Below, piece after piece: positions 18,901 to 62,880 of a stretch of DNA of 64,000 nt. A program made the translations under genes and the position numbers. The notes under the pieces are model-generated. The model ran no database searches. It was not told where the DNA came from and worked only from the letters and a program-made list of their open reading frames with translations. Origin of the DNA: Chloracidobacterium validum (GTDB lineage: Bacteria > Acidobacteriota > Blastocatellia > Chloracidobacteriales > Chloracidobacteriaceae); the NCBI RefSeq assembly GCF_018304825.1, contig NZ_CP072648.1:1533501-1597500 (forward strand), written 5' to 3'. Position 1 is the first letter of the stretch. Each line of letters begins with the position of its first letter.

Positions 18901-19992
18901 TTTCACATGTCCAACGACAGTCACCGCTTCCGCTCGGCAAGTGAACTCCAGGCGCAAGGGTTCCACCGGGAAGGCAGCCGCTTCGTTCGGGGCGAGACGG
19001 TCTATCTGCCGCTTTATGAAGCCAAGCTTATCTGGCAGTTTGACCATCGCTTCGCCACCTATGATGAAGCCGGCAAGGAGACCCGCGACCTGACCATCGC
19101 GGAAAAAAGCGACCCGGCCACGCAACCGCTGCCGCGCTACTGGGTGGAGGCATCCGAAGTCAACGCGAAACTTTCCGGCTGGCAACGCCGGTGGCTCCTT
19201 GGCTTCCGTGATGTCACGAACGCGACGAATGAACGAACCGCGATTTTTAGCCTGCTGCCGCGTGTGGCGGTAGGGCATACCAATCCGCTCGTTCTTTCTG
19301 AAACCGTTGAAGCCACGGATAAGCTCCTCGTCTGCCTGGCAGCGATGAACAGCCTAGTTTTTGACTTTATCACCCGCCAAAAAGTAGGTGGAACACATCT
19401 GACCTTTACCGTTGTCAAGCAACTCCCCGTCCTGCCGCCCAACCACTACACCCCGACCGACTTGCGCTTCATCGTGCCGCGCACGCTGGAGCTGGTCTAT
19501 ACCGCCTGGGACCTGGCGCCCTTTGCCGCCGACCTCTGGCACGACGCCGACGAACCACTCCGCGCCGCCATTGACCAGTGGCGGCAGACCGCGCCCACCC
19601 ACCCGGACACACCACCCCCTTGGCTCAAGGAAAGCCATCCCTTCCCGCCGTTCCAATGGGATGCCGACCGCCGGGCAGTCTTGCGCGCCGAACTCGACGC
19701 CTACTATGCCCACCTCTACGGCCTCACCCGCAAGCAGTTGCGCTACATTCTCGACCCGGCCGACCTGACCAAACAGGAACTGGCCAACATCCTCGACCCC
19801 ACCGAAGAGGTCACCGACCCGCTCGACCCCGAAGGCTATGCGCGGCGCGTGAAGCAGTCGGACTTCCCCGGCGAGACCTTCCGCGTCCTCAAGGACAAAG
19901 AGCAGCGCCACTTCGGCGAGTACCGCACCCGCCGCCTCACGCTCGAAGCCTGGGCTGTGGTTGGGGAGAGAGGAGAGAGGGGTGAGGAGTGA
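15899..19992 (+). pseudogene. Eco57I-type N6-adenine DNA methyltransferase, DrmMI-like, two frameshifts
   Basis: The gene reads as one protein of roughly 1360 residues in three frames. Frame one runs 15899 to ~16130. A third G at 16129-16131 shifts it; without it the text reads NETDPATTLTRDIW. Frame two runs to ~16990, where a duplicated ccgg (gccggccggccc) shifts it again; without it the text reads QQLAGPLAALLDLP. Frame three runs to 19992 and holds motif I DPACGSGHFLLA (~17428) and motif IV NPPW (18199-18210), the adenine-methyltransferase signature. The N-terminal part resembles the large regions of Eco57I/PglX-type enzymes (GIVTNGLVVRLLRN). The stop lies within a purine-rich heptamer array. 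The catalytic fragment alone could encode up to 1025 residues, but no ribosome-binding site precedes its first ATG (16915). Confidence 0.8.
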
Positions 19993-20106
19993 GAAGTGAG
20001 GAGTGAGGAGTGAGGAAAGAGGAGTGAGGAAAGAGGAGTGAGGAGTGAGGAGTGAGGGGTGAGAGTGGGGAGTGGGGAGTGGGGAGTGGAGAGTGGGGAG
20101 GTGGGG
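19982..20106 (+). repeat. Purine-rich heptanucleotide array (gtgagga/gtgggga), ~18 units
   Basis: About 18 head-to-tail units of seven bases occupy 125 bp. The first half is mostly gtgagga with two aagagga variants (units 6 and 8). Unit 12 is one base short, and the last third shifts to gtgggga. The array starts inside the last codons of the methyltransferase, supplies its TGA stop at 19990-19992, and ends 45 bp before the next ATG. The strand is almost free of C. Seven is not a multiple of three, so copy-number change would alter the methyltransferase C-terminus and the spacing to the downstream gene. It is not a CRISPR: there are no spacers. Confidence 0.9.
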
Positions 20107-46564: not shown

Positions 46565-46600
46565 CGACTTGTCGAAAGCCACCGACTTGTCGAAAGCCAC
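46565..46600 (+). repeat. Exact 18-bp tandem duplication
   Basis: Unit cgacttgtcgaaagccac occurs at 46565-46582 and 46583-46600 without mismatch. Each unit contains the small dyad cgacttgtcg. It lies 54 bp beyond the 3' end of the minus-strand DUF971 gene, in non-coding DNA. Confidence 0.9.
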
Positions 46601-52353: not shown

Positions 52354-52387
52354 GCTGGTTTTGCCATTCTGCTGGTTTTGCCATTCT
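52354..52387 (+). repeat. Exact 17-bp tandem duplication directly after ppdK
   Basis: Unit gctggttttgccattct occurs at 52354-52370 and 52371-52387 without mismatch. It starts at the base after the ppdK TAG and ends 39 bp before the nuclease gene. It marks the border between ppdK and a lower-GC nuclease/methyltransferase pair. Confidence 0.92.
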
Positions 52388-52426
52388 GATAGATGCGACC
52401 GAACACGTCGGTACAGAAAGATTCCT

Positions 52427-57048: not shown

Positions 57049-58287
57049 ATGCCCCACGCTGAAATCATCGCCATTGGCTCGGAACTCCTGACCCCGTTCC
57101 GGAGTGATACCAACTCGTTATGGCTGACCGCCGAACTCAATGCACTTGGCATTGCGGTTCGCCGCAAAACGGTTGTTGGCGACGACGAACCCTTCCTGGA
57201 GGAAACGCTTCGGGACGCGCTGCGTAACTCGCCAATCGTGATCACGACCGGCGGACTCGGGCCAACCGAGGACGACATCACCCGCAAGGTCGTCGCCCGC
57301 GTCATGCAACGCCCGTTGGTGCTGCAACCTGATATTCTCGACCGCATTCGACATCAGTTTGAAATCCGTGGCCTGCCCATGTCGCCGAACAACGAGCGCC
57401 AGGCCCTGGTGCCACGCGATGCGACGCCCTTGAGCAACGACTATGGGACGGCGCCGGGTCTCATCCTGCGGGAAGGCGACCGGCAGTTGATCGTCCTGCC
57501 CGGCCCGCCCCGTGAGATGCGGCCGATGTTTACACAGCAGGTCCGTCTTCACCTGGAGCCACTGGCCGGTCATGTCCGCTTGCGCACCCGTACGCTGCGG
57601 GTGGCCGGCATGGGCGAATCACAGGTGGATAGCCTGATTGCGCCGATTTACACCCGCTACACCAACCCGACGACGACCATTCTGTTCAACAACACCGAGG
57701 TCGAACTGCACTTCACAGCCAAAGCGCCCTCCGATGATGAAGCCGACACCCTGCTGGATGAGCTGGTCGGACAAGTTGAGGACGTGCTGGGTGCAAATGT
57801 GTTTTCCCACCGTGGGGAAACACTGGAGCAAATTGTTGGACTGCGGCTGACGGTCAAAGGCTACACCATCGCCACGGCCGAAAGCTGCACCGGCGGACTC
57901 GTCGCCAAACGCCTCACCGATGTGCCGGGCAGCTCGCAGTACTTTCTTGAAGGCGTGGTGGCGTACTCCAATGCCGCTAAAACCCGCCTTCTGGATGTTC
58001 CGGCAGAACTGATCAGCGAGCACGGCGCGGTGAGCGCCGAAGTCGCGGAAGCCATGGCCGCTGGTGTGAAAGCGCGCGCCGGCACGACCATTGGCGTTGG
58101 CATCACCGGTATTGCCGGTCCCGACGGCGGAACCGACGAAAAGCCGGTCGGACTGGTCTATGTCGGCATCGCCGGTGACTTCGTCGTCACGCACCGGAAG
58201 TTCATTCTACCGGGCGACCGCGACCGCATTCGTCACCTCGCTTCGCAGGTCGCACTCGATTTGGTCCGGCGCACCTTTCTGCTCTAG
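57049..58287 (+). CDS. cinA: CinA-family protein (competence/damage-inducible; NMN amidohydrolase type)
   Basis: 412 residues with both CinA modules. The N-terminal molybdopterin-binding-like domain: AEIIAIGSELLTPFRSDTNS, ITTGGLGPTEDDITRKVVA, VLPGPPREMRPMF. The C-terminal CinA domain: GYTIATAESCTGGLVAKRLTDVPGSS and GVGITGIAGPDGGTDEKPVGLVY, which in characterised members deamidates nicotinamide mononucleotide for NAD recycling. Length is standard. Its TAG stop lies in a ctag palindrome that also provides the stop of convergent purS. Confidence 0.95.
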   Translation: MPHAEIIAIGSELLTPFRSDTNSLWLTAELNALGIAVRRKTVVGDDEPFLEETLRDALRNSPIVITTGGLGPTEDDITRKVVARVMQRPLVLQPDILDRIRHQFEIRGLPMSPNNERQALVPRDATPLSNDYGTAPGLILREGDRQLIVLPGPPREMRPMFTQQVRLHLEPLAGHVRLRTRTLRVAGMGESQVDSLIAPIYTRYTNPTTTILFNNTEVELHFTAKAPSDDEADTLLDELVGQVEDVLGANVFSHRGETLEQIVGLRLTVKGYTIATAESCTGGLVAKRLTDVPGSSQYFLEGVVAYSNAAKTRLLDVPAELISEHGAVSAEVAEAMAAGVKARAGTTIGVGITGIAGPDGGTDEKPVGLVYVGIAGDFVVTHRKFILPGDRDRIRHLASQVALDLVRRTFLL

Positions 58288-58532
58288 GCACTCAGGAATT
58301 CGATGCGGTAGTCCTCGATCACCGGATTAGACAGCACCTCACGCGCAAAGCGCTCCAACTCGGCACGCGCCGCGGCCGGATCATCGCCGTCGGACAGTTC
58401 TACCTCAAAGAACTTCCCCTGGCGCACCTCCGCAATGCGAGTGAAGCCAATAGCCTCACTCGCCTGCTGAATGGTTTGGCCCTGTGGGTCCAAAACCCCT
58501 GGCTTGAGCGTCACATGCACGGTCGCTTTCAT
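58284..58532 (-). CDS. purS: Phosphoribosylformylglycinamidine synthase subunit PurS
   Basis: PurS is the small subunit that joins PurL and PurQ to make FGAM in purine synthesis. 82 residues: VHVTLKPGVLDPQGQTIQQASEAIGF with the G-V-L-D-P-Q-G hallmark, VRQGKFFEVEL and NPVIEDYRIEFL. purQ and purL are not in the window. The start codon lies in a 17-bp tandem duplication, so a second ATG 17 bp upstream opens a 6-codon frame whose TGA overlaps the purS ATG (ATGA). No SD precedes the purS ATG. Last gene of the ispE-to-purS run. Confidence 0.93.
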   Translation of the reverse strand: MKATVHVTLKPGVLDPQGQTIQQASEAIGFTRIAEVRQGKFFEVELSDGDDPAAARAELERFAREVLSNPVIEDYRIEFLSA

Positions 58533-58561
58533 GGGCTTGGCTGGTTCATGGGCTTGGCTGG
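58528..58561 (-). repeat. Exact 17-bp tandem duplication carrying the purS start codon
   Basis: On the minus strand the unit ccagccaagcccatgaa occurs twice (58561-58545 and 58544-58528). The second copy contains the purS ATG, the first an identical ATG in another frame. The first opens the frame MNQPSP-stop, whose TGA shares two bases with the purS ATG. The arrangement could couple purS translation to a mini-ORF. It lies in the 36-bp gap after rplI. Confidence 0.92.
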
Positions 58562-58568
58562 CTTGGCG

Positions 58569-59078
58569 CTATGACGCAACCGACTCACCGGCTGGTGGAT
58601 GCTCATCCGGGGTCGTCGGCTTTGGCGCATCAGACACCACACTCACCTTGATCGTCGCGGCGACATCACGGTGCAGTTTGACCGTCACTTCATAGTCGCC
58701 AAGGGCTTTGATGGCTTCCTTCAGGACGATCCGCCGGCGATCAATCTCAAGCTGCTGGGCCGCCAGCGCCTCGGCAATGTCCATGGATGTGACCGAACCA
58801 TAGAGCGTCCCGTTTTCACCGGCCTTGCGCTGGAAGGTCAGCGTCGTGGCGTTCAGCTTTTCACCAAGCGACTGGGCCGCAGCCAACTCCGCCTCGGCCA
58901 GCTTGACCAGCCGTTGCCGCTCCCGCTCGATGAGCTTGACGTTGGCGCGGGTGGCCATCAGTGCCAGCCCCTTGGGAATCAAATAGTTGCGCCCATAGCC
59001 AGCCCGGACTTTCACGATGTCGCCCCGGACGCCGAGGTGCTCGACATCTTCCTTCAGTAGTAGTTCCATTATCGCCAT
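58569..59078 (-). CDS. rplI: 50S ribosomal protein L9
   Basis: 169 residues. The L9 signature near the start is complete: LLLKEDVEHLGVRGDIVKVRAGYGRNYLIPKGLA with the G-x2-G-x4-V-x2-G-Y-x-R-N-[FY]-L core. The long central helix (ANVKLIERERQRLVKLAEAELAAAQ) links to the C-terminal rRNA-binding domain (KAGENGTLYGSVTSMDIAEAL). The last ~20 residues are a Pro/Thr-rich extension. ATG 59078 has AGGGTG ~6 nt upstream. It follows rpsF by 31 bp without the usual rpsR between. Confidence 0.95.
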   Translation of the reverse strand: MAIMELLLKEDVEHLGVRGDIVKVRAGYGRNYLIPKGLALMATRANVKLIERERQRLVKLAEAELAAAQSLGEKLNATTLTFQRKAGENGTLYGSVTSMDIAEALAAQQLEIDRRRIVLKEAIKALGDYEVTVKLHRDVAATIKVSVVSDAPKPTTPDEHPPAGESVAS

Positions 59079-59109
59079 CGGTTGTCACCCTGCCTTTCGT
59101 TTGGAGCGG

Positions 59110-59532
59110 CTACTCTTCGCCTTCTGGTTCAGCGCCGTTGCTTTCCGATGCGCGCCGTGCCGCCCGCGCTTGCAGGCGGCTATCACGCCGTGCCTTGATT
59201 TTCTGGGCGCGCTTGAGGTCTTCATCCACCCGTACGGTCAAAAAGCGAATGACCGGATCGAGCACGCGCAGCCGCCGTTCCGTTTCAGCAATTTCGCGCC
59301 CCGTGCCGTTGACATGGAGCAGCACGTAAAAGCCTTCGTAAAACTTACGGCTTCCCTTACGAATCATGTAAGCCAGCCGCTGACGACCGATCTTTTCTAC
59401 CTTATTGACCACACCGCCCTGTCCGCTGATCTGGCCGGAAAGCGCCTCGACAATCTTGTCGGTTTCTTCCTCTGCCAGATCAGGGTCAAGCACAAACATG
59501 ACTTCATACAAACGATCAAGCTTCGTATTCAC
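59110..59532 (-). CDS. rpsF: 30S ribosomal protein S6
   Basis: 140 residues: YEVMFVLDPDLAEEETDKIVEAL, GGVVNKVEKIGRQRLAYMIRKGSRKFYEGFYVLLHV and LRVLDPVIRFLTVRVDE are the canonical S6 blocks. The ~40-residue basic then acidic C-terminal tail (KIKARRDSRLQARAARR...EPEGEE) is variable in the family; in some bacteria the equivalent tail is glutamylated. A GTG start is chosen because AAAGGAG lies 6 nt upstream. S6 normally binds S18, whose gene is missing here. Confidence 0.95.
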   Translation of the reverse strand: MNTKLDRLYEVMFVLDPDLAEEETDKIVEALSGQISGQGGVVNKVEKIGRQRLAYMIRKGSRKFYEGFYVLLHVNGTGREIAETERRLRVLDPVIRFLTVRVDEDLKRAQKIKARRDSRLQARAARRASESNGAEPEGEE

Positions 59533-59625
59533 TCGTAACTCCTTTCGGACTCAGCCTCACGACTGACGCCTCCGCTCCAGTGACGGAAGCAAGGAATGGT
59601 CGGCGCGCCAAGACGCCGGTAACGT

Positions 59626-60189
59626 TCAGGCATTAAACCGCGCCATGGCTGGCTCGATGCCCTGCTGAACCCAGGCCTCAACGGCGTCAGCAGCGCGGGT
59701 CGTTAGTTCAGGCAAGGCGGCGCGCTCCGCCGCCGAAAAATTGCCAAGCACGAAATCTGCCAAGTTGCGAACCGGATGCTCCGGCCCGATGCCAATCCGC
59801 AGGCGGGCATAGTTCTCGGTTTTGAGCTTTGCCGCCAGCGACTTCAAACCATTGTGTCCACCGGCGCTGCCCTTGCCGCGCAAGCGCAAACGACCAAACG
59901 GCAGCGCCACATCGTCCACGATGGCAAGTAAATCCTGCTGTGGGTTGACGCCATACTTGGCGCACAACGGCGCAACGGCTTGACCGGAAGCGTTCATGAA
60001 GGTCTGGGGCTTGACGAGCAAAACCGACTCAGGCCCGACGGTCATACGCCCTGTCAACGCTTCACACTCAAGCAGCTTAACCGGCTTGCCGGCGCGCTCG
60101 GCCAGGGTATCTACCACCAAGAAGCCGATGTTGTGGCGCGTCAGCGCATAGGGCGCGCCCGGATTGCCGAGTCCCACCACGCACTTCAC
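59626..60189 (-). CDS. pth: Peptidyl-tRNA hydrolase
   Basis: Pth recycles peptidyl-tRNAs dropped by the ribosome. 187 residues: VVGLGNPGAPYALTRHNIGFLVVD with the catalytic His of T-R-H-N-x-G, KPQTFMNASGQAV, LAIVDDVALPFGRLRLRGKGSAGGHNGLKS and RIGIGPEH. All active-site residues are present. The GTG at 60189 gives the family N-terminus KCVVGLGNPG; upstream in-frame sequence overlaps rplY and is not conserved. It lies 7 bp after rplY, the classical rplY-pth pairing. Confidence 0.95.
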   Translation of the reverse strand: MKCVVGLGNPGAPYALTRHNIGFLVVDTLAERAGKPVKLLECEALTGRMTVGPESVLLVKPQTFMNASGQAVAPLCAKYGVNPQQDLLAIVDDVALPFGRLRLRGKGSAGGHNGLKSLAAKLKTENYARLRIGIGPEHPVRNLADFVLGNFSAAERAALPELTTRAADAVEAWVQQGIEPAMARFNA

Positions 60190-60196
60190 AGACAAG

Positions 60197-60814
60197 CTAC
60201 TTCTTGCCTTTCTTCGGAGCTTCACTGGCCGCGGCCGCCGTCGCTTCCGCCGAAGCGCGCGTCCCGACCAACGACGCCACAAGCTGTGTCGCGGGAGACA
60301 AAAGCTGCGCGCCGTCTGGAAGCGGAATATCACGGGCATAAATCCGGCCACCAATCTTCAAGTCGGCAATATCAACCACAATTTCCTTGGGCAATCGGGA
60401 AGTCAAGCACTTGATGGTCAGCGTGCGCACCCCGCGTTGCAGCACCGCACCTTGCCGAACACCCAACGGCTCACCCTGCAACCGAAGCGGCACCGGCGTC
60501 TTGACCGGTTCATCCAGTGCCACCCGGAAGAAATCAAGATGTTCAATAGACCCCCGAACCGGGTGGGTTTGGACTTCCCGAATGATCACCGGAACGAGAC
60601 CTTCCTCTGGCAGATTGATGTTGAACACTGTCGCCCGGCTGATGCCGGTGCGCACAAAGGCAGCAAAGGCTTTGCGATCCACCAAGCCGTTGAATGATGG
60701 CTGCTTGCGACCATACACGTTGACCGGGATCGAACCTGCCCGCCGATTGCGGCGCGCTTCATTTGAACCAAGCTTCTGACGCGGCTGCACTTCAATAACT
60801 GTCTCAGCAATCAT
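60197..60814 (-). CDS. rplY: 50S ribosomal protein L25 / general stress protein Ctc (TL5 type)
   Basis: 205 residues, so the two-domain Ctc/TL5 form rather than the short E. coli L25. The N-terminal 5S rRNA-binding domain: EVQPRQKLGSNEARRNRRAGSIPVNVYG and HLDFFRV. The beta-rich C-terminal domain: VPLRLQGEPLGVRQGAVLQ and DIADLKIGGRIYARDI. It ends in an Ala/Lys-rich tail. ATG 60814 (MIAETVIEVQ) is favoured over 60850. It stabilises 5S rRNA in the ribosome. Located between prs and pth as in many bacteria. Confidence 0.94.
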   Translation of the reverse strand: MIAETVIEVQPRQKLGSNEARRNRRAGSIPVNVYGRKQPSFNGLVDRKAFAAFVRTGISRATVFNINLPEEGLVPVIIREVQTHPVRGSIEHLDFFRVALDEPVKTPVPLRLQGEPLGVRQGAVLQRGVRTLTIKCLTSRLPKEIVVDIADLKIGGRIYARDIPLPDGAQLLSPATQLVASLVGTRASAEATAAAASEAPKKGKK

Positions 60815-60878
60815 GACGACGTACCGATTCCCTTTCCTCTCTGCTTCCAATGGTCAAACGTTTCTTACGAAAAACGTT

Positions 60879-61817
60879 TCATACAAAAAGACGACTGACC
60901 GACGTTGCCGTGTGAATCGAACGAATGGCTTCCGCAAGCAGCCCGGCCACGCTCAAGACCCGAATCTTGGCCAGCGGCAGGTTGGGATGCGGAATGGTGT
61001 TGGTGACAACGAGTTCCTCAATCGGCGACTGTGCGATGCGTTCGAGCGCCGGACCAGAAAGCACCGCATGGGTACAACAGGCGTAAACGGACGTTGCGCC
61101 CTGATCGGCAATCGCCTGCGCCACCTGTGTCAACGACCCAGCCGTATCCACCATATCGTCCACGATGAGGGCCGGCCGGCCCTTGACGTTCCCGACGATG
61201 TTCATCACCTCAACCGTGTTGGCCTGCTCTTTGTCGCGGCGCTTGTCAGCCAGGGCGAGATCAGCATCCAGGCGCTTGGCATAGGCCCGCGCGCGTTCGA
61301 CGCCGCCGGCGTCAGGCGCGACGACAACTAGGTTATCCAGCATTTTCTTGGCGAAGTAATCGAGCAGCACCGGAGCGGCGTAGAGGTGATCCACCGGAAT
61401 ATCAAAAAACCCCTGAATCTGCCCAGCGTGCAGGTCCATGGTCAACACTCGCGTTGCCCCGGCGGTGGTGATGATATTCGCCATCACTTTGGCCGAAATG
61501 GGCACTCGCGGGCGGTCTTTCCGGTCCTTGCGGGCGTAGCCAAAGTATGGAATGACGGCCGTGATGCGTTCAGCCGAGGAACGCCGAAAGGCATCGAGCA
61601 TGATCAGTAGTTCGACAACGTGGCTATCTACCGGCGGACAGGTCGGCTGAACAATGAAGACATCCGCCCCACGGACGTTTTCATTAATCTGATAATTGAA
61701 CTCGCCGTCACTGAAGCGCGTCGTGTTGGCATCGCCAATTTGAATGCCAAGGTAGCGACAAATTTCTTCCGCCAGGGGACGATTGGCGTTGCCGCAGAAC
61801 ACGCGCATCCCACTCAT
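60879..61817 (-). CDS. prs: Ribose-phosphate pyrophosphokinase (PRPP synthetase)
   Basis: Makes PRPP, the substrate of PurF encoded at 6588, from ribose 5-phosphate and ATP. 312 residues: FSDGEFNYQINENVRGADVFIVQPT, IPYFGYARKDRKDRPRVPI (flexible ATP loop), TMDLHAGQIQGFFDIPVDHLYA and the PRPP-binding loop ALIVDDMVDTAGSL. The N-terminal FCGNANRPLAEEI is canonical. Class I length. It follows tRNA-Gln and ispE on the same strand and precedes rplY. Confidence 0.97.
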   Translation of the reverse strand: MSGMRVFCGNANRPLAEEICRYLGIQIGDANTTRFSDGEFNYQINENVRGADVFIVQPTCPPVDSHVVELLIMLDAFRRSSAERITAVIPYFGYARKDRKDRPRVPISAKVMANIITTAGATRVLTMDLHAGQIQGFFDIPVDHLYAAPVLLDYFAKKMLDNLVVVAPDAGGVERARAYAKRLDADLALADKRRDKEQANTVEVMNIVGNVKGRPALIVDDMVDTAGSLTQVAQAIADQGATSVYACCTHAVLSGPALERIAQSPIEELVVTNTIPHPNLPLAKIRVLSVAGLLAEAIRSIHTATSVSRLFV

Positions 61818-61906
61818 GACTAGTTAACCTCATCCCCCACTGACGAACACGTGCGACGCTTCGCTCACCACGGAGCCAAACGTCGCACGTGATGCGTCGC
61901 AAAGAC

Positions 61907-61980
61907 TGGCTGGCAGACAAGGACTCGAACCTTGATTCAGCGCTCCAAAGGCGCTTGTCCTACCATTGGACGATCTGCCA
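61907..61980 (-). tRNA. tRNA-Gln (anticodon TTG), CCA encoded
   Basis: On the minus strand, acceptor stem tggcaga (61980-61974) pairs with tctgcca (61917-61911). The anticodon stem agcgc/gcgct encloses loop ctttgga, giving anticodon TTG (Gln). The T arm aaggttcgagtcctt is standard. Discriminator G (61910) is the usual Gln identity base, and CCA is encoded at 61909-61907. It lies 6 bp after ispE and ~90 bp before prs, an ispE-tRNA-Gln-prs order also found in other phyla. Confidence 0.94.
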
Positions 61981-61986
61981 ACGAAA

Positions 61987-62880
61987 TTACGAAGGTGGAT
62001 AGCTTCCAGTCACCCCAATCCGTCGAGCATACGTTTCTCGACCAAGCGCGGGCGAAGTCCAAGCGAGCCACCCAGCCTCCAAGCAAATCTGCCGCGCGGC
62101 TTCACCAGCCGCCGCATCCTCGAAGAGACCAAAAACCGTGCTACCGCTGCCTGACATCCGCGCCAGATGCGCACCCAGCGCACGGAGCCGGTCGCGCACT
62201 TCCCGAACCAGTGGAAAAGCGCGAAAGACGACCGCTTCGAGGTCATTGCCTGCCGCCAACCAATTGATGTTGTCTGGCGAGCAAGCGGTCAGTGTATGGA
62301 TAGTTAGCTCATCTGTCAACTCTGCTTGTAAGCCGCGGAAGACCGGGCCGGTTGGTATCGCCACCTTGGGGTTCACGACGACGATGGTGGGAAGATTGGC
62401 GTCTGGGAGCGGCGTGATGCGGTCGCCGCGCCCCAGCCCAAGGGCCGTCCCGCCAACCAGAAAGAATGGCACGTCAGCCCCAAGCTGCGCGGCCAGGCGC
62501 TGGCGGGTGGCTACCGACAGCGCAGCCCCCCAGAGCTGCTCCAAGGCCAGGAGCGTGACGGCGGCGTTGCTGCTGCCACCGCCGAGTCCGGCTTGCATGG
62601 GAATACGTTTTTGAAGGTGGATACGCGCCCCGTGGGTAACGCCGGCAGTGGATTGCAACAACCGCGCCGCGCGCACCACCAGATTTTGGTCATCACAGGT
62701 CAGCGTCGGATCGTCGCAGGTGAGCGCAATCGAAGGGTCCGCCGTGACTTCGATTTCCAACAGGTCATGTAGCTCGATGGTTTGAAAAACCGTCCGTAGC
62801 TCGTGATAGCCGTCGGAGCGCCGCCCGATGACTTCAAGGGACAGGTTGACTTTGGCAAAAGACGGGAACAGAGCCGGCAT
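61987..62880 (-). CDS. ispE: 4-diphosphocytidyl-2-C-methyl-D-erythritol kinase
   Basis: GHMP kinase of the non-mevalonate isoprenoid pathway. 297 residues: AKVNLSLEVIGRRSDGYHELRTVFQTI (catalytic Asp region with G-Y-H), the ATP loop IPMQAGLGGGSSNAAVTLLAL, ADVPFFLVGGTALGLGRGD, and the late GHMP motif MSGSGSTVFGLF. No other mep-pathway genes are in the window. It begins the minus-strand run ispE-tRNA-Gln-prs-rplY-pth-rpsF-rplI-purS. Confidence 0.95.
   Translation of the reverse strand: MPALFPSFAKVNLSLEVIGRRSDGYHELRTVFQTIELHDLLEIEVTADPSIALTCDDPTLTCDDQNLVVRAARLLQSTAGVTHGARIHLQKRIPMQAGLGGGSSNAAVTLLALEQLWGAALSVATRQRLAAQLGADVPFFLVGGTALGLGRGDRITPLPDANLPTIVVVNPKVAIPTGPVFRGLQAELTDELTIHTLTACSPDNINWLAAGNDLEAVVFRAFPLVREVRDRLRALGAHLARMSGSGSTVFGLFEDAAAGEAARQICLEAGWLAWTSPALGRETYARRIGVTGSYPPS

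Follow-up and report, generated by a model that had tools for sequence, protein, structure and literature searches.

A duplicated purS start codon in Chloracidobacterium validum: probably a recent tandem duplication with an incidental mini-ORF

In the hot-spring bacterium Chloracidobacterium validum, the start codon of purS lies within an exact 17-bp tandem repeat, an arrangement that has been seen in one strain. Most probably this is a young, lineage-specific slippage duplication, near-neutral in its effect, which left an incidental mini-ORF in front of a gene whose translation begins at 58532 independently of a Shine-Dalgarno (SD) sequence; slippage, co-transcription, the mode of initiation and near-neutrality are the parts of this explanation that we infer. 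No sign was found that the duplicated start matters, and a regulatory reading is not supported. Positions are those of the window, that is, the whole stretch of 64,000 nucleotides that was analysed. It belongs to a contig of 2,659,040 bases in a genome of 3,659,143 bases; for strain BV2-C, chromosomes of 2,659,040 and 1,000,103 bp (3,659,143 bp in total) are reported (PMC12816986).

On the minus strand, two identical units abut each other at 58528-58544 and 58545-58561 (17/17 match), each with one ATG, and together they span the final 29 nt of the rplI-purS spacer and the opening 5 nt of purS. The upstream copy (58545-58561) reads CCAGCCAAGCCCATGAA on the minus strand and holds an ATG at 58549, while the downstream copy (58528-58544) holds the purS ATG at 58532. 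The initial annotation was therefore right in describing an exact 17-bp repeat that contains the purS start, and also in stating that the upstream copy opens a six-codon frame, MNQPSP, whose stop overlaps that start. This mini-ORF (58529-58549, minus strand) reads ATG AAC CAG CCA AGC CCA TGA, with the TGA at 58531-58529 lying over the purS ATG at 58532-58530, which is the geometry of termination-reinitiation, a stop codon overlapping the next start. When the 3.66-Mb genome was searched with up to two mismatches, the unit was found at its two adjacent sites only (the reversed pattern, used as a control, matched 3 places), which rules out a dispersed repeat or mobile element.

The gene itself, purS (58284-58532, minus strand, 82 aa, no core SD), is assigned by two NCBIfam equivalogs that score above their cut-offs (NF004630, E 1.5e-26, 92.3 bits against 75; TIGR00302, 71.6 against 39). 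Its start is placed by the N-terminus MKATV, which is common to seven genomes of the genus, and the reading frame offers no alternative in-frame start within the spacer. Upstream lies rplI, encoding ribosomal protein L9 (58569-59078, minus strand), which ends with TAG at 58569-58571; the two genes are in one frame with that single TAG between them, and are separated by a spacer of 36 nt (58533-58568, minus strand). A simple sigma-70 scan of 58200-59800 gave no promoter in the spacer, and no terminator-like site was found on the minus strand of the same interval. No relative of rplI was found in viral contigs. The wider minus-strand cluster (58284-62880) comprises an ispE-like ORF, genes for PRPP synthase and L25, pth, rpsF, rplI and purS; the ORF at 61987-62880 is the one that we take to be ispE-like. 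In other bacteria rpsR (S18) often sits between rpsF and rplI; here it is absent from 59079-59109, and the genome matches it once, at C1:608400-608600. The gene purS stands beside ribosomal genes, with purQ (C1:114317) and purL (C1:2631678) far away. At its other end, purS shares the CTAG at 58284-58287 with the convergent cinA (57049-58287), both genes stopping at TAG with a 2-nt overlap; in L002 and L003, two purS loci of the genus, purS and cinA appear by eye not to overlap.

Tandem duplications of this kind are frequent in the genome. A scan for exact tandem repeats with units of 10-60 bp covered 457 contiguous kb of C. validum, roughly one eighth of its genome, and returned 24. Their units range from 10 to 21 bp and in 22 cases reach at least 12 bp; five random sequences of 457 kb drawn from a first-order Markov model contained 0, 2, 1, 0 and 1, with no unit as long as 12 bp. 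Adjacent identical copies of 17 bp are thus far beyond random expectation, yet within the genome's own rate. A relative in the genus, G005, has 18 such repeats in 400 kb. In both genomes they concentrate outside genes: sequence that is less than 20% coding holds 14 of the 24 in C. validum and 9 of the 18 in G005, even though the called coding share of the DNA is 89% and 86%, respectively. For another seven of the 24, a called start follows the end of the repeat within 50 nt (genes 20, 45, 48, 164, 190, 226 and 309). Only the purS repeat spans a called start, so that duplication of a start is rare even though duplication itself is not. Tandem Repeats Finder (TRF) also reported, in sequence of the window called non-coding, exact two-copy repeats of 18 bp at 46565-46600 and of 17 bp at 52354-52388, and at 19965-20100 an array of about 20 copies of the 7-bp unit GGAGTGA with 84% matches. 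In G005, the 3' end of rplI contains an exact 15-bp tandem duplication (G005:C1:1938561-1938590, in L002) that, from its sequence, would lengthen the C-terminal tail of L9 in that species.

The relatives suggest that the duplication is recent. Six genomes of the genus besides C. validum were available, four of them drafts of 70-390 contigs, and rplI precedes purS in all seven. The gap between the two genes is 36, 25, 25, 7, 31, 7 and 42 nt in L001 (the window) to L007, and the spacers look unrelated save for the similar pair L002/L003. The six other genomes lack exact tandem repeats (unit of 8-40) between -80 and +25 of purS, as expected of a short duplication gained recently. They also lack any ATG, whatever its frame, over the 60 nt that precede purS (-60 to -3), so the conservation that marks a regulatory upstream ORF (uORF) or leader peptide is missing. 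The initial annotation had said that a single unit in all relatives, with equal PurS level, would speak against its reading; in its sequence half that is what the comparison gave, with the second unit in none of the six. As all six keep rplI-purS with neither repeat nor upstream ATG, purS needs neither there. Within the frame that closes at the overlapping TGA, L005 and L007 carry unrelated GTG starts, which lie 5 and 11 codons ahead of that stop. Identity of the copies at all 17 positions, despite about 75% average nucleotide identity (ANI) between C. validum and C. thermophilum (PMC12816986), suggests a young event; C. validum is described as about equally distant from nine other sequences of the genus (PMC8245765). 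On this evidence from one strain, the duplication appears to have happened long after the species split.

Among 30 purS loci compared, in the genus and outside it, drawn from 54 genomes with a purS match, an ATG mini-ORF with its TGA over the start occurs within 60 nt in three (L001, L021 and L028), and in three others (L011, L015 and L023) exact tandem repeats lie ahead of purS without covering its start. Searches for rplI by tblastn (E 1e-8) matched neither the 23 loci outside the genus (L008-L030; flanks up to 1.5 kb, some shorter) nor 77 further loci (L034-L110, L034 being the contig of L011), so that among the loci compared rplI-purS adjacency occurs only in Chloracidobacterium. Many of the 23 have instead, by eye, a purB-like ORF upstream of purS, and the two that were tested are purB.

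The overlap of TGA and ATG is an automatic by-product, because a start of the form ATGA was duplicated by 17 bp (3x5+2, i.e. 3n+2). By simple arithmetic, a copied ATG reads into the purS TGA unless an earlier stop intervenes, and this holds for one unit length in three. Prior to the duplication, the frame ending at this TGA would read VGCVIAPSQPSP, which contains no ATG, GTG or TTG. In the present sequence the frame runs open upstream into rplI as far as a TGA at 58645, giving a putative frame of 37 codons from a GTG inside rplI (58529-58642, minus strand), with further ATGs at 58630 and 58606 and no sign of coding; a ribosome reading MNQPSP need not, therefore, start at 58549. Comparable arrangements were counted among the 350 genes called with a simple codon-score gene caller, for which 21 unambiguous starts served as a check. 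A TGA overlaps the start in such a way in 103 of them, and an out-of-frame ATG ORF of at most 30 codons ends within 30 nt of the start in 65 (64 of 303 in G005). ATG mini-ORFs with the TGA over the start number 15 of 350 within 30 nt, against 9.2 +/- 2.7 with shuffled upstream sequence (about 2 sd above); within 60 nt there are 18 against 15.5 +/- 4.3, and within 90 nt 25 against 20.4 +/- 4.1, both within about 1 sd.

The earlier observation that purS has no visible SD holds: there is no core SD (GGAG, GAGG or AGGA) at -20 to -5, and the duplex energy with the anti-SD is -0.8 kcal/mol, the anti-SD being a general consensus, since the 16S 3' end gave no match in this genome, though the family was matched in 9 of 14 control genomes. 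The same lack is found at 246 of the 350 called starts, at 34 of 58 genes that follow another gene at a gap of 21-60 nt, and at 12 of 18 starts that coincide with that of the G005 ortholog (18 pairs from 54 reciprocal hits, as the two regions compared share little). Called starts include wrong ones, and a core SD is present at 12 of the 21 unambiguous ATG starts and missing at 9, so that the lack may be rarer than 246 of 350 implies; the exact share of starts without a core SD is uncertain, yet large. Across the genus, purS has a core SD in one of seven genomes (L006) and a strong non-core match in L005 (-10.5 kcal/mol), with neither in the other five. SD-independent starts are described as widespread and as tending toward unstructured regions (PMC3121790).

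The region from -12 to +14 of purS is predicted to be more open at 45 C than 89% of called starts, with a mean unpaired probability of 0.593 (0.412 for internal ATGs); with a single unit the value is 0.544, so the second unit alters openness little. For the RNA of 58493-58592, 191 of 200 shuffled versions fold more stably (z +1.55). Three points make the argument from openness a weak one. The bases of the start codon have predicted unpaired probabilities of 0.57, 0.28 and 0.22, and are thus mostly paired; starts without an SD are predicted to be no more open than those with one (0.457 versus 0.466); and the 17-bp unit contains the palindrome CATG, through which the copies can pair (CAUG:CAUG), and this would bury both start codons. 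The minimum-energy fold of 58493-58592 (minus strand) does pair the two CAUG copies, a pairing absent from the centroid. No Rfam match reached the gathering score in 57800-60400, which together with the low stability of the RNA argues against an RNA element; the RNA element or structure that accompanies regulatory uORFs and leaders is thus not seen here.

The initial annotation had proposed that purS may depend on termination-reinitiation from the mini-ORF. Ribosomes would then start at 58549, translate MNQPSP, stop at its TGA and restart at the overlapping purS ATG, the duplication serving as a built-in coupled start. Such a mechanism is very unlikely here, and dependence of purS on it is not borne out. 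In its favour, serial gene pairs overlap by 4 nt or 1 nt far more often than they are arranged in any other way, and coupling depends on distances as short as these (PMC10666635); the region of the upstream ATG is predicted to be no less open than that of the purS start (mean unpaired 0.629 versus 0.593), and mini-ORFs within 30 nt are slightly above the shuffled expectation. The upstream ATG is, however, also without a core SD (E 0.6) and its flanks nearly match those of the purS ATG, which leaves it without clear advantage; neither it nor the repeat occurs in any of the six relatives, the overlap arises automatically, and such mini-ORFs are at or only slightly above the level of shuffles. 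While 15 nt of an upstream gene were sufficient for coupling, that piece was fused behind a reporter gene (PMC10666635), and the sufficiency of a six-codon ORF is not implied. That a single slippage gave C. validum a working relay of six codons with an ATGA hand-over, by which PurS would be raised or buffered, has a slimmer chance again.

The mini-ORF might instead lower PurS, if the purS start were kept occupied by ribosomes that initiate at 58549 or pause where the mini-ORF ends in Pro-stop. It does end in Pro-TGA, and release is slow at a C-terminal proline; against this, the mini-ORF is not conserved in the genus, and the effect is extremely improbable. Direct coupling to rplI, by which ribosomes ending at 58569 would reach the purS ATG 36 nt on and the duplication would merely have widened the gap from 19 to 36 nt, is unlikely as well. 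The order rplI-purS in seven of seven genomes, the spacers of only 7 nt in L004 and L006 and the common frame broken by a single TAG speak for it; against it stand the variation of the gaps within the genus (7 to 42 nt) and the finding, in a different organism, that in three Escherichia coli pairs reinitiation fell by 80-90%, or ceased altogether, at a gap of 38 nt (PMC10666635). Read-on from rplI, the other route put forward for purS, is thus possible given the conserved order, but 36 nt is long by the measure of that loss (PMC10666635).

The explanation that we prefer is a recent 17-bp tandem duplication in the short rplI-purS spacer, through slippage during replication or another local copying error of that sort, which would have copied the first five bases of purS including its ATG. 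PurS would be made from the downstream ATG at 58532, most likely on one mRNA with rplI. Initiation would be independent of an SD and take place in a C-rich stretch that is predicted to have little stable structure, and ribosomes finishing rplI perhaps help a little. MNQPSP, which may still be translated in this strain, would be an incidental by-product of a unit of 3n+2 bp and the ATGA of purS, and the effect of the duplication on the PurS level is probably small.

In length, exact identity, copy number and non-coding location, the repeat resembles the other short (about 10-25 bp) two-copy tandem duplications of C. validum and G005; it differs from them in that it spans a start codon, whereas the other 23 of the 24 in 457 kb span no called start. 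With the gene pairs that use ATGA for termination-reinitiation (PMC6728339, PMC10666635) it has in common the 4-nt overlap of stop and start, but what precedes the start is not a gene: it is either a six-codon ORF without conservation or a tail read out of frame within rplI, and a core SD is lacking. Regulatory uORFs and minigenes of bacteria (PMC12121999; PMC8708949), e.g. the two-codon minigene in the axe-txe operon (PMC8708949), are likewise very short and close before a gene; MNQPSP, in contrast, is a putative ORF, unconserved in the genus, and ORFs like it occur at or slightly above the frequency in shuffles. A literature search on duplicated or tandem start codons gave no related precedent (a match on SARS-CoV-2 subgenomic RNA was unrelated), and one on the genus and ribosome profiling gave no mention of the genus among the matches listed; neither proves absence.

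If the relay were true, the birth of a translational control element would have been caught in the act, in a gene whose product has its partners, PurQ and PurL, encoded at other sites, and reinitiation control could arise in one mutation. As it stands, the finding matters little; it illustrates that, when slippage copies an ATGA start, a mini-ORF overlapping the real start results for one unit length in three. Since such mini-ORFs arise so readily, 'leaders' of this kind need evidence of conservation or expression before they are read as regulatory. The richness of the C. validum and G005 stretches in tandem duplications of 12-21 bp is possibly a mutational signature.
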